Source of the DNA: Terriglobia bacterium
Lineage (GTDB): Bacteria > Acidobacteriota > Terriglobia > JAIQFV01
NCBI GenBank assembly: GCA_020073085.1
Contig: JAIQFV010000006.1
Coordinates: 124,001 to 188,000, forward strand
DNA: 64,000 bases
Direction: 5' to 3'
Shown here: positions 43,446 through 50,238 of the stretch, piece by piece
Layout of the letters: every line of letters begins with the position of its first letter
How positions within the stretch are numbered: position 1 is the first letter of the stretch
The notes under the pieces: model-generated
Databases searched by the model: none
The model's input: only the letters and a program-made list of their open reading frames with translations
What the model was told of the DNA's origin: nothing
Position numbers and translations under genes: made by a program

Positions 43446-43542
43446 GTCGCCTCCACCAGCGGGACCGGCTCCGACTGGGTGGTCAAGCTGATCGACGTCT
43501 ACCTGGGCGAGTTGGCGGGGCAACCCAAGATAGGGGTTATCG
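43446..43542 (+). pseudogene. fragment of a second CocE/NonD hydrolase gene
   Basis: Aligns to 42093-42189 inside the intact hydrolase gene. It is nearly identical for the first ~70 nt and diverges after that. The translation VASTSGTGSDWVVKLIDVYLGEL matches the C-terminal domain of that enzyme. Frames before and after are not hydrolase-like. It ends at the 18-bp repeat that marks the left side of the defence cluster. Confidence 0.75.
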
Positions 43543-43560
43543 AATGTTCGTGCCTGACCC
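43543..43560. repeat. 18-bp direct repeat, left flank of the defence cluster
   Basis: AATGTTCGTGCCTGACCC differs at two positions from AATGTCGGTGCCTGACCC at 48994-49011, same orientation. A third relative, AATGTGTAAGCCTGACCC, is at 3388-3405. Confidence 0.65.
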
Positions 43561-43594
43561 TAACGGGTTTCTTTTGCCTTCCTGATTAGTCCGC

Positions 43595-43624
43595 TTGAAT
43601 CAAGAGCAAGCTTCGAATTATACT
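43595..43624 (+). promoter_or_regulatory. putative promoter of the restriction-modification gene
   Basis: TTGAAT (43595-43600), 18-nt spacer, TATACT (43619-43624), 34 nt before the TTG start. A reasonable but not perfect sigma70 match. Confidence 0.45.
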
Positions 43625-43658
43625 GCGCCAGCATTCAAGCTTTTCTTGGAGCCCGTCA

Positions 43659-46505
43659 TTGCCCAATTCAATCGAGGCCCTAAAAGGGCGATTGCAGAAA
43701 CTCATTACCAAATTCCAAGCTGACCGAGAGTACTATCTTTCCAGCAAATACCTCGAAGCCCAGGCCCGCGTGGACTTCGTCACGCCTTTTTTCAAAGCGC
43801 TTGGTTGGGATGTTGAAAATGAAGCCGGCGCACTTCACCACCAGCGGGAAGTCATCGTCGAGCGAGGCGAGGCAGAAACTGAAGGCCGACCTGATTACAG
43901 CTTTCGAATCGCCGGCCAAACCAGATTCTTCGTCGAGGCCAAGGCCCCTTGCGAAACTCTAAGCACACCAAAGCACATTCTTCAGGCCAAGGGCTACGCT
44001 TGGAACACCAAGCAGGTTTCCTTTGTGATCCTGACGGACTTTGAGGAATTCCGCTTCTACGACGCTTCCATTCGGCCCGACGAGCGCATGCCGGATGAAG
44101 GTCTCCTACTTTCACTCAAGTACACCGAGTACCTCAGAAATGCAGAGAAGCTCTGGGAGTTTTCTCGGGAGCGTGTTGCGGCGGGCTCACTGGACGCGAT
44201 GTTGCCTCGCGATCGGCGTACTCAGCGTCTACGGATCCCGGTTGATGCGGCGTTCCTCGATGAGATGACCGGCTGGCGCGAAGACCTAGCCCGGAATGTT
44301 TTCAAAAACAATCCCGACCTTACCGCCAAGCAACTGAACGAAATCGTTCAGCGCTTGCTTGACCGTATCGTCTTCGTCCGCATTGCTGAAGACCGGCGCA
44401 TCATCGAGAAGAACCAGCTCCGCGACGCAGTGGAAGAATGGCGGGCGCGCGGTGGCAAGTTTCATATCTTTGACTGGTTGAACGATCTCTTCCACAAGAT
44501 CAACGACGACTTCAACGGCGAAATCTTCAAGCCACACCTTTCGGAAACCATCAAGATCGAGTCTGAGGGGCTTGCAAAAATCATTGAGCGCCTCTACCCA
44601 CCAAAAAGCCCTTATCGTTTCGATGTCATCGGCGTCGAACTGCTCGGCTCCATCTATGAACGTTACCTGGGGAAAACTATCCGGCCCACCGCCAAAACCG
44701 TCCGAGTCGAGGAAAAGCCAGAGGTTCGCAAGGCCGGCGGCGTCTATTACACACCCAAATACATTGTCGATTACATCGTCAAGAACACAGTAGGCAAAGT
44801 CGCTGAAGGAAAGACGCCCAGACAAATCGAGAAAATCCGCATCCTCGATCCGGCATGCGGCTCTGGTTCCTTCCTCATCGGCGCATTTCAATATCTCATT
44901 GATTACCATGTGCGCTACCTCATTGAACACCCGAAGGAAGCTCGCGTTCATCCGCTGTTCCCAGACTTGATCAAGGATGAAAGTGGTGAGCCCCGGCTGT
45001 CGGTCATTCGCAAGGCGCGCATATTGAAGAACAACCTCTTCGGGGTGGACATCGACCCTCAGGCTGTTGAGATCACTATGATGAGCCTTTACCTCAAGGC
45101 TCTCGATGGTGAGAAATCGCAGCTCCCGCCGAAGCACCACTTGTTGCCCGAACTCAAGTACAACATCATTTGCGGGAATTCCCTCATCGGTCCAGATATC
45201 TATAGCCAGGGCACACTGTTCGGCGAGGCGGATCGTGATCGTATCAATGCATTCGACTGGAATTCTGTCGTCGCAGGTTTTGGCGACGAAATGAAATCAG
45301 GGGGATTCAATTGCGTGATTGGAAATCCACCATACGGCGCCTCGCTCGGCGATTCTGAAAAGCCGTATCTGTCCCAGAAATTCAAGACAGCCACAAGCGA
45401 ACTTGATACTTACAGCATGTTCATAGAACGGGCAGTCGGAGTTTGCGCGCCCAGAGGCCGCGTATCGATGATTGTGCCAACTGGTTGGTACAGTGGTTCA
45501 AAATTCTCGAAGCTCCGGCAATTCATTGCGGTACAAACGGATCCACAAACGTTGATCAACCTTCCCTATGATGTCTTCCCAGCGTGGGTTGACACAACGA
45601 TTTTTGTCTTTTCCAAACGTGCTGAACCAACGACTTGGCCACGCCGAAGCCGCTGCGGGGTCCTCCTGAAGACCTTTTCAAAACGACATAAAATCAAGTC
45701 GCTATCTGAGTTTGAGGAGGACACGAAATTTGCTGAACTGACAAGCTGGTTTGCACTGGGAGGGGACGAATTCCTAACTTACGCAGACGAGGCCACAAGC
45801 AGGATTATCACAAAAATGCAGAGGACAGGTAAGCCTCTCGGAGAGATCTCGGATGTCCAGCGTGGTGTGACCCCGTTCAATCTCACACCCACGCGCGAGC
45901 AAAAATGTAGCGTGCGCGCTTTTGCTGGGACGGTACGCCGATATTCCATTGTAATGGGTCCTCGAAGATTCATTCGATTTGATGACACTCTGGCAGAACC
46001 TAAACCCGATCGGTATTTCAAAGGACCACGACTGCTCTTGCGGGAACTTATAAGTCGCCAGTTTAGGCTTCAGGCAGTGAAGACCACCGAGGATTTTGTC
46101 ACCAACAAATCGATGCAGAGTATTTTGCAAGGCCAGGCCGGGCCAGCCCTGAACTTTATTCTCGGGTGTGTGAACAGCCGACTGATGTCGTGGTACTTTC
46201 TGCATCGATCTAACATCGCGCAACGCGACGATTTTCCTAAGATTGTTTTAAAGGAGAGCCGGGGTTTGCCTATCCACTTGCCAAATGTTCACGATCCTGC
46301 AGATAAGGCGCGCCACGATAAGCTCGTGGCGCTCGTGGACCAGATGCTAGAACTGCACAACCAAAAGTGTTCCGCTAAGCTGGCACCATCGGAACTAGCT
46401 CGTATTGACCGGGAAATCGGTGTAACTGATCGCGAAGTTGACGAATTAGTCTACGAGCTCTACAAAATCACATATGAAGAAAGAAGGCTGATCGAGGAAG
46501 GCTAG
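43659..46505 (+). CDS. type IIG restriction-modification enzyme (Eco57I-like, nuclease + N6-adenine methylase)
   Basis: 948 aa single-chain enzyme that both cuts and methylates DNA. An N-terminal PD-(D/E)xK nuclease shows RPDYSFRI...FFVEAKAP (Asp about residue 78, ExK about 93-95). A helical linker precedes the methylase: motif I ILDPACGSGSFLIGAF (about 396-411) and motif IV NCVIGNPPYGAS (about 553-564). The C-terminal ~270 residues look like a TaqI-type specificity domain. The start is TTG. The stop is followed directly by the TIR gene with no gap. Recognition sequence cannot be predicted. Confidence 0.92.
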   Translation: MPNSIEALKGRLQKLITKFQADREYYLSSKYLEAQARVDFVTPFFKALGWDVENEAGALHHQREVIVERGEAETEGRPDYSFRIAGQTRFFVEAKAPCETLSTPKHILQAKGYAWNTKQVSFVILTDFEEFRFYDASIRPDERMPDEGLLLSLKYTEYLRNAEKLWEFSRERVAAGSLDAMLPRDRRTQRLRIPVDAAFLDEMTGWREDLARNVFKNNPDLTAKQLNEIVQRLLDRIVFVRIAEDRRIIEKNQLRDAVEEWRARGGKFHIFDWLNDLFHKINDDFNGEIFKPHLSETIKIESEGLAKIIERLYPPKSPYRFDVIGVELLGSIYERYLGKTIRPTAKTVRVEEKPEVRKAGGVYYTPKYIVDYIVKNTVGKVAEGKTPRQIEKIRILDPACGSGSFLIGAFQYLIDYHVRYLIEHPKEARVHPLFPDLIKDESGEPRLSVIRKARILKNNLFGVDIDPQAVEITMMSLYLKALDGEKSQLPPKHHLLPELKYNIICGNSLIGPDIYSQGTLFGEADRDRINAFDWNSVVAGFGDEMKSGGFNCVIGNPPYGASLGDSEKPYLSQKFKTATSELDTYSMFIERAVGVCAPRGRVSMIVPTGWYSGSKFSKLRQFIAVQTDPQTLINLPYDVFPAWVDTTIFVFSKRAEPTTWPRRSRCGVLLKTFSKRHKIKSLSEFEEDTKFAELTSWFALGGDEFLTYADEATSRIITKMQRTGKPLGEISDVQRGVTPFNLTPTREQKCSVRAFAGTVRRYSIVMGPRRFIRFDDTLAEPKPDRYFKGPRLLLRELISRQFRLQAVKTTEDFVTNKSMQSILQGQAGPALNFILGCVNSRLMSWYFLHRSNIAQRDDFPKIVLKESRGLPIHLPNVHDPADKARHDKLVALVDQMLELHNQKCSAKLAPSELARIDREIGVTDREVDELVYELYKITYEERRLIEEG

Positions 46506-46988
46506 GTGAACGATATGGCGTATACAATTTTCCTGAGCCACAGCTCTTCAGATAAGGAATGGGTCAAATGGATTGCTGCCAATGCACAGCAGGTGGGTAT
46601 AGAGGTGTACCTTTACGAACATGACCCGCAGCCAGGCAGACTGGTCGCTGACAAGCTCCAAGCTGCAATCCATGTTTGTGATTCATTGGTCGTGTTGATT
46701 ACCGGAAACAGTCAATTCTCGCCTTATGTCCAGCAGGAAATTGGATCGGCCAAAGCGCTGAATAAGCCCGTGATTCCACTCGTCCAACCAGGCATTGGCC
46801 AGTCGAGCCTCGCGATGTTGCAAGGAGAGGAGTACATACCGTTTGACTTCGCCAGCCCTGAGCATGCAATGTCCGCGCTTTTGGATTATTTACAGAGAGC
46901 AAAACAGAGCAAGGAGAAGGGGCAAGGTGCTCTCTTGGTGATTGGAGCGATCATCGTCGGGGCTTTACTCCTCAAAGGCAAGGGCTAA
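46506..46988 (+). CDS. TIR-domain protein with C-terminal membrane anchor
   Basis: 160 aa. The TIR domain (about 5-125) begins YTIFLSHSSSDKEWVKWIA and includes YVQQEIGSAKALNKPVIPL, where Glu78 is the likely NADase residue. A basic linker and one C-terminal helix (GALLVIGAIIVGALLLKGKG) follow, so the protein should sit at the membrane facing the cytoplasm. Bacterial TIR effectors deplete NAD+ or make signalling nucleotides during phage infection. The GTG start abuts the stop of the restriction-modification gene; an ATG at 46515 is an alternative. The 285 bp after it contain no clear gene. Confidence 0.85.
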   Translation: MNDMAYTIFLSHSSSDKEWVKWIAANAQQVGIEVYLYEHDPQPGRLVADKLQAAIHVCDSLVVLITGNSQFSPYVQQEIGSAKALNKPVIPLVQPGIGQSSLAMLQGEEYIPFDFASPEHAMSALLDYLQRAKQSKEKGQGALLVIGAIIVGALLLKGKG

Positions 46989-47273
46989 AGGCTTTTGACT
47001 TTAACGACATGACCCGGTATGACAACTTGTAGCACTGTTCAAGAGGATGCTGGAACTGCACTGGAAGGAACATTCGGTTTCGCCTTGCCAAATTGTGCAC
47101 TCGGAACATGACGGCATCGACGGCAAAATCGCTGTGACCGACCGCCCAAGAATGAAATTGCATGTGACAAATCCAACGTCGCGGCCAAGGATCGAGGCTC
47201 TTCTCCTCTTGGACCGCGCGAATACGAACGGCCGCGCCATGATTTCTTCCGCATGCGATAAAGAGAGATTTCC

Positions 47274-47993
47274 ATGATAAATAGAATGATTGACTTTTCG
47301 AGTCACTTGGATCGAAAGGGCTTTGAATCAGACAGTAAAGCAACATGGGGGCAGTCGTTCTTCGATACTGTGGAAGATCTTAAGTCTCTGCTTAGTCGTC
47401 GCCCGCCAGAGCAAAGGTTACAGCAGTTCTTCGAGAGCCATCCGTACCTGCTTCCCGGCATTGACGCCCTACACAACGGTCCTTTGGCTGGAATCGTCGC
47501 TACGAAATTCTGTTTAGGGAATTCATTCCAGACTGATTTCTCCTTTGTCAGCGCAAATTCTCAAGAACTACGAATTACCTGCGTGGAGATTGAATCACCC
47601 CGGAAGAGCATTTTCAGAAAGGATGGGGAATTCAGCCGTGACTACTTAATGGCAAAACAACAGATTCTGGACTGGATGTTTTGGGCACACCACAACGTTA
47701 AACAGGCATTAGATTGTTGGGGCCCTCTCATGGGGGGACGAGTCCGGAGACTACACACGATATATTTCGGGGGCTATCTCGTTTTTGGCAGAAGGGCCGA
47801 GATAGATAACCCTAAGAAGCAGGAACGATGGTCAGCGGAAGATCTAACTCTTGCCAGAGGCTTGTCAACCATGACGTATGACAGATTGCTGGACTGGAGA
47901 GAAGGTCGCTGGATTCCAAAGATACGGTACGGAAAAATTGCAGTATGTTCTTACAAGGACAGAAGATTCATCGCCAAGAAGCTGTGTATTTAG
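47274..47993 (+). CDS. Shedu-like nuclease protein (DUF4263-related), ExE variant
   Basis: 239 aa. The pattern EQRLQQFFESHPYLLPG (about 46-62), TDFSFVSA (Asp88) and CVEIESPRKSIFRKDGEF (Glu105, Glu107), with the downstream Gln in AKQQILDWMFWA (about 127-138), matches the PD-(D/E)xK core of Shedu/DUF4263 proteins. The usual Lys of ExK is replaced, giving E-I-E. Shedu proteins give single-gene phage resistance. It is shorter than classical SduA and has no obvious N-terminal sensor domain. It lies in the defence cluster on the same strand as the TIR gene. Confidence 0.7.
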   Translation: MINRMIDFSSHLDRKGFESDSKATWGQSFFDTVEDLKSLLSRRPPEQRLQQFFESHPYLLPGIDALHNGPLAGIVATKFCLGNSFQTDFSFVSANSQELRITCVEIESPRKSIFRKDGEFSRDYLMAKQQILDWMFWAHHNVKQALDCWGPLMGGRVRRLHTIYFGGYLVFGRRAEIDNPKKQERWSAEDLTLARGLSTMTYDRLLDWREGRWIPKIRYGKIAVCSYKDRRFIAKKLCI

Positions 47994-48184
47994 AAGAACT
48001 GGGGTCGACTATGAATGCGGACGAACTAAAAGGGCTGGGGCAGGATGTGTCCAAACTCATCTGGGCAAGTATCAAATTGTGAAATCTGGGCGGTTTATGA
48101 CATCAGAGTGTAAGAGAGATGGATTTTTGAAGAGAGAGTGAATTCCTCCGGCCTTGTCAGAGAGCAGGAGAGGAGGCTAGCCCC

Positions 48185-48799
48185 ATGCCCGAGACGATGA
48201 ATCAGATATTAGTCTTGTTGGTTTTCATAGTGCCTGGCTTCATTGTGATTCGAGTGAAGCGCATCGCCTATCCAAGAGCTGAGGAGGCGACGCTCAGCAT
48301 CGTCCTTGACAGTCTCGCACTCAGCAGCTTGGTTCACGCCATCTGTTTTCCGATTTGGTATTGGATTTATGCTTCTCGGTCTTACGCCACAGCGCCAACT
48401 CTCTTCGTGCTGCAGGTGTTCGTGATCCTGCTCCTTGTTCCTGTTCTGTTCGGCATTCTGTTCAATTTTTCTGTCAGGACAGACAAGGCCCGATGGCTTC
48501 GTGAATTTCTCTATTTTCCGCATCCCGACCCCACGGCATGGGACTACCATTTTAGAAAGGGAAGGGCCTACTGGATTTGGTTGACATTCAAGAATGGTCA
48601 AGTGATGGCTGGGCTCTTCGGCCCAAATTCGTTCGCGGGCTCCTTTCCGAACAGGCAAGACCTTTACATCGAGAAATTGCTTTCACTCGATGAGCATGGT
48701 AAAGTCAAATCGTTAATCGAAAACTCTGCGGGAGCGCTCGTAAGGATGGATGATTTGGACCGCATCGAGTTCTTCGAGATCGGAGGAGTCAAAGTATGA
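48185..48799 (+). CDS. DUF6338 family membrane protein
   Basis: 204 aa. Three membrane helices (about 7-23, 44-65 and 75-97) precede a cytoplasmic C-terminal domain with PHPDPTAWDYHFRKGRAYWIWLTFKNGQVMAGLFG and NRQDLYIEKLLSLDEHGKV, the pattern of DUF6338. No enzymatic motif is evident. GGAGAGGAGG precedes the ATG. Its stop overlaps the start of a 64-aa gene by 4 bp, so the two act as a unit. Function unknown. Confidence 0.7.
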   Translation: MPETMNQILVLLVFIVPGFIVIRVKRIAYPRAEEATLSIVLDSLALSSLVHAICFPIWYWIYASRSYATAPTLFVLQVFVILLLVPVLFGILFNFSVRTDKARWLREFLYFPHPDPTAWDYHFRKGRAYWIWLTFKNGQVMAGLFGPNSFAGSFPNRQDLYIEKLLSLDEHGKVKSLIENSAGALVRMDDLDRIEFFEIGGVKV

Positions 48800-48990
48800 G
48801 TGAAGAGAAGACAGTTCGTGCACTTCGGGAAAGCCATCAGCCTCTCAAAAATGAGATCACTAAAGGTTATCCGGTTAGTCAGCAGGTAGATCTGGCCAAC
48901 CTCAAGCCCCCTTCAAACCTCGGAAGCGCGGCTGTCACCCCGCAGAACTCGAATCAGTCAGCTCCTGCCCCCGCCAAGACTAACAAGTGA
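48796..48990 (+). CDS. small partner protein of the DUF6338 gene
   Basis: 64 aa, hydrophilic. Residues 15-30 (QPLKNEITKGYPVSQQ) look conserved-like, and the rest is Ser/Pro/Asn-rich and probably disordered. It starts at ATGA overlapping the DUF6338 stop. It resembles the small proteins that accompany DUF6338 membrane proteins, but this is from pattern memory. Stop lies 4 bp before the right-hand 18-bp repeat. Confidence 0.6.
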   Translation: MSEEKTVRALRESHQPLKNEITKGYPVSQQVDLANLKPPSNLGSAAVTPQNSNQSAPAPAKTNK

Positions 48991-48993
48991 AGG

Positions 48994-49011
48994 AATGTCG
49001 GTGCCTGACCC
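48994..49011. repeat. 18-bp direct repeat, right flank of the defence cluster
   Basis: AATGTCGGTGCCTGACCC, direct copy of 43543-43560 with two differences. The block between them holds exactly the restriction-modification, TIR, Shedu-like, DUF6338 and small-partner genes. Confidence 0.65.
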
Positions 49012-49030
49012 GAATTCCTATTACAGCCGT

Positions 49031-50116
49031 TCAGGGTTGTGTGAGATCAAATCTTTTCTTGAGGTAGTTGAATCGCGAGAATGGGATCCTCCCTTCGTGC
49101 TGCAAGCGACCCACGACAATACCCGCCGAAATGCCAAGGGAATCCGCAAGGGCCCGGATTCCGGGTTCTGTAAACTTCGATGCGACAATGAATCGCCGCC
49201 ATTGGGACTCGGGGATGAGGTGGGTTGTGGCGAAGGCGTCCGCTTCTCGCTCTTTGTCGTTTCCACCGGCGCCATCCTCCAGGAATACGTCGCGTTTGCC
49301 ATGCAACGCCACATGACCCGCCTCGTGGAAGAAGGTGAACCAAAAGATGTCTTCCACCTTGTACCTACAACTCAATTGGATGATCGGATGATCGCCCACC
49401 CATCTTACCGCACCATGGATTGAAGTATGGGGAAGCTCCTCCACGAAAACCACGGCTACACCAGCCTTACGACACGCTGCCGTCAGGGACCGTTTCAACG
49501 CGGCGGGACGCATCTTCATGAGACCGCGCATACGACCAAGCTGTTGCTTGAAGACGGTCCGTTCAAATGCCGGCAAGCGGAGCTTTCTGGCCGAGACTTC
49601 TCCCAAACGCAACCAGGCCGCCGTGGATTCCGGGCAGGCACGGAAAGCAGTGGACCGGCGGTAAGATGCCGCGGGAGCCGTCCACACCTGGCTCCAGGCG
49701 GAAATGCTGCTCACGCCGAAAAATTGAAACATTGCGCGAACCAAGTCGCCGCCTTCTCGCGATTCGGAGAGGACCCCGCGCTGGGTGAGCTCCTTGACGG
49801 GGAACCTCTTCACCCACTCTGTAGCAGCTTCCAACGATTTTTGTTCTTTCAGGGAGGCTATCGTTTGTCGGTAGTTTCGCTCCAGGTTGTTCCAAAACGA
49901 AGCCGGCAGCGCGAGCACGTGTTCCAACTGCAAGGCAGTTTCTGCGGTAATGGCGGCCTTCCCCTTGATGATTTCGTTTATGGTTTTAAGGGGCCGTCCG
50001 GTGCGTTTGGCCAATTCGGCCTGCGAAAGACCGAGCGATTGAATCGTTTCAAGCAGGGTCGCCCCTGGAGGCACGGCGTAGTCCGGCTTAAACTCAATTC
50101 TTCTCTTAGCGATCAT
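49031..50116 (-). CDS. HigA-type XRE regulator fused to an ImmA/IrrE metallopeptidase domain
   Basis: 361 aa. The N-terminal helix-turn-helix (about 25-75) has LSQAELAKRTGRPLKTINEIIKGKAAI, typical of HigA antitoxins. The C-terminal half contains FFHEAGHVALHGK, the zinc site of ImmA/IrrE peptidases, followed by KEREADAFATTHLIP with the third ligand Glu. Such fusions act as stress-responsive repressors or antitoxins. Start 50116 is chosen because GAGGA lies upstream; the frame runs on to 50197. No toxin gene is seen directly upstream or downstream. Confidence 0.88.
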   Translation of the reverse strand: MIAKRRIEFKPDYAVPPGATLLETIQSLGLSQAELAKRTGRPLKTINEIIKGKAAITAETALQLEHVLALPASFWNNLERNYRQTIASLKEQKSLEAATEWVKRFPVKELTQRGVLSESREGGDLVRAMFQFFGVSSISAWSQVWTAPAASYRRSTAFRACPESTAAWLRLGEVSARKLRLPAFERTVFKQQLGRMRGLMKMRPAALKRSLTAACRKAGVAVVFVEELPHTSIHGAVRWVGDHPIIQLSCRYKVEDIFWFTFFHEAGHVALHGKRDVFLEDGAGGNDKEREADAFATTHLIPESQWRRFIVASKFTEPGIRALADSLGISAGIVVGRLQHEGRIPFSRFNYLKKRFDLTQP

Positions 50117-50184
50117 GGTAGTCCTCAATTGACGATTGGACAGGGATTCTGAGTTTGCCGCCTTCGCGAACTTGCCCGAATGAA

Positions 50185-50238
50185 AGCTTATTCTCATGGC
50201 TTGATTATGTCAATAGTTTTATTAACCCTTAGGGTTAA
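50185..50238 (-). promoter_or_regulatory. putative promoter and operator of the HigA/ImmA gene
   Basis: On the minus strand TTGACA (50213-50208), 17-nt spacer and TAAGCT (50190-50185). Just upstream lies an inverted repeat TTAACCC-tta-GGGTTAA (50222-50238) in an AT-rich stretch, a plausible autoregulatory operator for the XRE protein. The -10 box is weak. Confidence 0.4.

Follow-up and report, generated by a model that had tools for sequence, protein, structure and literature searches.

The 64,000-nucleotide stretch of a Terriglobia bacterium contig analysed here (the window) encodes, among other defence genes, a Shedu-like protein in which the lysine of PD-(D/E)xK motif III (Glu-X-Lys, ExK) is replaced by glutamate (Glu-X-Glu, ExE). 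The original prediction saw in this protein either a diverged subfamily with a migrated Lys or an inactive variant with a binding role. Every Shedu enzyme that we found described with an activity has the Lys, while ExE is fixed across a widespread branch. This branch-wide change of the motif is real and worth testing, and it raises two questions: does the branch cut DNA, and how does a protein devoid of a sensor domain spare its host?

The reading frame of the gene is intact, with an ATG start codon, 239 amino acid codons and a stop codon (Table 1). A possible ribosome-binding stretch (AAAGAGAG) is located immediately 5' of the ATG; a scan for promoters and terminators around the frame gave no signal above chance. 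The translation places D88, E105-I106-E107, Q130 and W134 exactly where they had been predicted, and the Lys-rich segment P109-R-K111-S-I-F-R-K116 is also present as described. Residues 45-206 are assigned to SduA_C (PF14082, formerly DUF4263; E=3.2e-17, 63.6 bits, the curated Pfam cut-off being 27 bits) and to no unrelated family, and among the SduA models of PADLOC the best match is PDLC00378 (E=4.7e-28). Its own genome contains no other SduA_C match; a single-sequence scan of a collection of genome contigs with the protein yielded no match, and a search of NCBIfam no matching model.

The assignment is supported by the predicted fold. The AlphaFold2 model, calculated from an alignment of the protein with eleven relatives from genome and viral collections, has a mean pLDDT of 76.8 and a pTM of 0.77; most of the core exceeds 90, and residues 1-24 are modelled below 50. 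A sequence-profile search (profile A1) matched none of the solved structures, but the fold search succeeded: Foldseek returned nine matches at E<0.001, all of them Shedu (Bacillus cereus 8TI9 and 8TI8, Escherichia coli 8PS4 and 8PS5), with an E-value of 4e-7 for the nuclease domain. VIA-align superposed the model on 8TI9_B (Z 15.0) and 8PS4_A (Z 14.4) over 169-175 residues, whereas the next unrelated fold, the BspD6I nuclease subunit, reached Z 7.3. The PD-(D/E)xK fold is thus that of Shedu nuclease domains, and the protein has the SduA_C motif residues common to both branches, i.e., D88 of motif II, E105 as the first Glu of motif III, and Q130 of motif IV. It is a member of the SduA_C family, although not a canonical (type I) Shedu, because ExE stands where motif III should have its Lys, and the N-terminal domain is all but missing.

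Table 1. Features of the Shedu-family gene and its surroundings (positions in the window; counts refer to alignment rows)
Feature	Position	Strand	Basis
Block lacking in a genome of the same genus (type IIG gene for the most part, TIR, Shedu, DUF6338)	43784-49024		Comparison with sister genome G396
Type IIG-like restriction-methyltransferase (Eco57I/N6_Mtase, HSDR_N)	43659-46505	+	PADLOC REase_MTase_IIG E=2.8e-162; Pfam
TIR-domain protein (TIR_2)	46506-46988	+	Pfam TIR_2 1.4e-18
Shedu-family (SduA_C/DUF4263) nuclease, ExE branch, 239 aa	47274-47993	+	Pfam, PADLOC, AlphaFold2 model
E46 codon, motif I acidic residue	47409-47411	+	Invariant: ExE 26/26, ExK 14/14
D88 codon, motif II Asp	47535-47537	+	Invariant: ExE 26/26, ExK 14/14
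E105-I106-E107 codons, motif III (ExE replacing ExK)	47586-47594	+	E107 in 26/26 ExE; same column K in 14/14 ExK
K111 codon, basic residue going with ExE, candidate compensating Lys	47604-47606	+	K/R in 22/26 ExE, 2/14 ExK
Q130-ILD-W134 codons, motif IV helix	47661-47675	+	Q130 invariant in both branches
DUF6338 protein, no assigned function	48185-48799	+	Pfam PF19865 1.9e-34
HigA-type HTH fused to IrrE/M78 peptidase-like domain	49031-50197	-	PADLOC PD-Lambda-2_B 1.2e-34

The replacement is not peculiar to this gene. A profile search of 396 same-phylum genomes, together with searches of 61 nearer genomes, plasmids, phages, a set with one genome for each species, and viral contigs, gathered 42 SduA_C domains: 27 with ExE (that of the window included), 14 with ExK, and one with AxA. 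Among domains that were found with the Pfam profile only, in genomes around that of the window, and have a readable motif, four are ExE and fourteen ExK; ExE is thus common even when the window protein does not bias the search. ExE domains come from at least six phyla (Acidobacteriota, Pseudomonadota, Actinomycetota, Bacteroidota, Bacillota, and Fusobacteriota) as well as from plasmids and viral contigs. One such gene is carried by the IncHI1 plasmid pO111_1, and similar matches occur in E. coli and Salmonella plasmids (tens of records, few of which were inspected). Two ExE domains reside in proteins longer than 500 residues (L048:1303-3009 and L050:2399-3955), whose long C-terminal extensions lie outside any PADLOC match.

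In the phylogenetic tree, the ExE domains, with the AxA copy nested within them, and the ExK domains lie on opposite sides of one branch (support 98/92). The same split is recovered after removal of the ten motif columns, with support of 86/87 and in 87% of the bootstrap trees. From this unrooted tree, which contains several long branches, one split is claimed and its direction left out. ExE is nevertheless likely to be the derived state, because Lys in motif III is the norm of the PD-(D/E)xK superfamily. The window protein, which shares only 21-30% identity with its aligned relatives, forms a long branch of its own inside the ExE side. As judged from these sequences, the altered motif is a constant feature of a widespread branch to which databases already give the name Shedu, and the gene of the window is a diverged yet ordinary member of it, adding one more sequence. 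The initial designation of the protein as a Shedu-like nuclease therefore agrees with profiles, fold, and tree; the same evidence upholds its placement in a diverged subfamily, with the qualification that ExE is the signature of a branch rather than the oddity of one gene.

Column counts refer to 26 ExE rows (the window protein and 25 relatives, one truncated row being excluded) and 14 ExK rows. Search patterns were made from smaller sub-alignments, because divergence within the complete ExE alignment was too great. Six residues are invariant in all ExE rows (E46, D88, E105, E107, A127, and Q130) and Q50 occurs in 25 of the 26; E46, D88, Q130, and the motif III Lys are invariant in all ExK rows, where motif III begins with E (13/14) or D (1/14). 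A profile-profile alignment places EIE over EIK, so that E107 is aligned with the canonical Lys. As to the Gln and Trp described originally as a DUF4263 motif, the Gln is indeed shared by both branches, but the Trp is typical of the ExE branch (W in 24/26 rows at position 134), its ExK counterpart being mostly Tyr (12/14).

The persistence of E46, D88, E105, E107, and Q130 throughout the ExE branch argues against decay, and the enzyme of the window is probably functional rather than broken, to judge by these residues. Could the domain instead be catalytically dead and bind DNA or DNA ends in a sensing or regulatory role that perhaps serves the neighbouring TIR or restriction genes? The canonical Shedu nucleases that have been tested require the Lys, and in Vibrio cholerae VcSduA the K557A substitution abolishes defence (PMC12137116). 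Yet the catalytic carboxylates and Q130 are all retained across very diverged relatives, E107 with them, and a truly decayed copy has AxA instead, so a dead domain appears quite improbable and the inactive variant with a binding role considered at the outset is unlikely. Inactivation was also rejected as the reason for ExE, the motif being invariant across the branch and the decayed copy looking different. The latter (L040:4965-5624, from a Gemmatimonadetes MAG) has Ala in place of both motif III acids (VAIARP) with the remaining motif kept; from its sequence, it could have been inactivated naturally or be a variant that only binds.

As we read the evidence, the original prediction overlooked a third option, namely that ExE is itself a known catalytic form. 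Replacement of the Lys occurs in active PD-(D/E)xK enzymes, with Glu in BamHI and Gln in BglII (PMC4081073). The catalytic residues of BamHI are E77, D94, E111, and E113, and its E113K variant cleaves poorly while binding remains intact (PMC8845596). An all-carboxylate site is the first choice here, because the window protein offers E46, D88, E105, and E107. We consider it fairly probable that the gene encodes a stand-alone, single-gene PD-(D/E)xK nuclease (SduA_C, ExE branch) that is catalytically active on DNA by means of such a BamHI-like site.

A basic residue accompanies ExE. All ExE rows without K/R at position 111 have K at 112, as in the KPSSKYF group, which combines S111 with K112; a basic residue at either position is found in 27/27 ExE sequences versus 6/14 ExK. 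For position 111, Fisher's test gives p = 1.6e-5 under the assumption of independent rows, which these rows are not. The pattern suggests K111 as a compensating Lys. It would also suit an active nuclease with a migrated catalytic Lys, in which K111 (K112 in the KPSSKYF group) replaces the motif III Lys and E107 is secondary, and migration of Lys or Arg is documented in other PD-(D/E)xK families. The documented migrations, however, enter the motif IV helix and not the loop after strand 3 (PMC1913061), and the Q130 helix of the window protein contains no ExE-specific basic residue, position 135 being Met. Furthermore, the association of the +4 basic residue with ExE is not independent of phylogeny, and strict retention of Glu would be needless at a freed position: E107 does not drift as a non-catalytic position should, which argues that its site has not been freed. 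We therefore regard migration as unlikely, albeit less so than a dead domain.

The genomic surroundings are those of a defence island. The type IIG-like and TIR genes precede the Shedu gene, with a PIN gene further upstream, and the DUF6338 and HigA-IrrE genes follow it. The third-position GC content of this stretch (0.52-0.60) is below that of most of its surroundings. The TIR_2 gene starts right after the stop codon of the type IIG gene and encodes a hydrophobic, possibly membrane-spanning C-terminus; it possibly encodes an effector of the TIR type, coupled to that restriction gene. The sister genome matches the window at 43577-43783 and again from 49025 onwards, with a scar of ~130 bp between the two parts; the HigA-IrrE gene is conserved there. 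Because the start of the type IIG gene (~125 bases) and this short scar remain there, the 5.2-kb block was probably lost from the sister genome by deletion. Direct copies of a 19-bp element (GAATGTCGGTGCCTGACCC) flank the defence block at 43542-43560 (with two mismatches) and 48993-49011 (+ strand); exact copies number three genome-wide, and the scar of the sister genome comprises two inverted copies of a 22-bp version (L070:893-914 and 942-963).

Among the relatives examined, no gene recurs beside the ExE gene. A fixed partner gene for ExE Shedu was accordingly rejected, and a single-gene system fits this observation. The proximity of the TIR gene would suit a dead, regulatory domain, whereas the missing recurrent partner speaks against one. 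On a Priestia megaterium plasmid (L024:1-5108), the ExE Shedu gene comes immediately after genes for an AAA ATPase and a UvrD-type helicase, in a Gabija-like order, and precedes that of a 3'-5' exonuclease.

If the protein is an active nuclease with an all-carboxylate site, E46, D88, E105, and E107 would bind metal ions and activate water, as their four BamHI counterparts do, and K111 might contact the scissile phosphate. Within the defence island, the protein would restrict incoming phage or plasmid DNA. Our guess for its control and sensing, given that no N-terminal sensor is present, is self-assembly or recognition of DNA ends by the core itself. A more tentative proposal concerns the family as a whole: Shedu may have switched chemistry once, exchanging a Lys-containing site for an all-carboxylate one that resembles BamHI and has a compensating basic residue at +4. 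If true, this single switch gave rise to a large branch of sensor-less, single-gene nucleases that extends across phyla and onto conjugative plasmids. No assayed member of the ExE branch was found in the literature, of which the Shedu papers were covered in part.

The closest known counterparts are the other SduA_C proteins of the ExE branch (PADLOC PDLC00378 and PDLC00398; NCBI "Shedu immune nuclease family protein"), which share the motifs E46, D88, ExE, K/R111, and Q130-W134 and, like the gene of the window, have a short N-terminus and are mostly single genes, some of them on conjugative enterobacterial plasmids. B. cereus SduA (8TI8/8TI9) and E. coli SduA (8PS4/8PS5) have the same nuclease fold (Z 14-15), and the characterised Shedu nucleases share the active-site Asp and Glu and the motif IV Gln. 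They differ in having the motif III Lys (EIK in B. cereus SduA, EVK in E. coli SduA, K557 in V. cholerae VcSduA) and a large N-terminal regulatory domain, whereas the window protein has ~45 residues before SduA_C and no sensor domain. In E. coli SduA, an N-terminal clamp binds DNA ends and the nick falls at a constant distance (PMC12904381); the window protein, whose N-terminal domain is almost absent, should not be assumed to sense ends in this way. BamHI resembles it in the carboxylate-only motif (D94 and E111-x-E113, plus E77; PMC8845596), corresponding to E46, D88, E105, and E107. Since the structural match between BamHI and the model is weak (Z 5.5, a value in the range that unrelated folds reach), BamHI-like chemistry is an analogy. 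No sequence kinship with BamHI was detected, and BamHI differs further in being a type II enzyme that is specific for a sequence and paired with a methylase. Among validated defence proteins, PD-T4-8 from E. coli contains a DUF4263 domain (PMC9519451) and might be of the ExE type.
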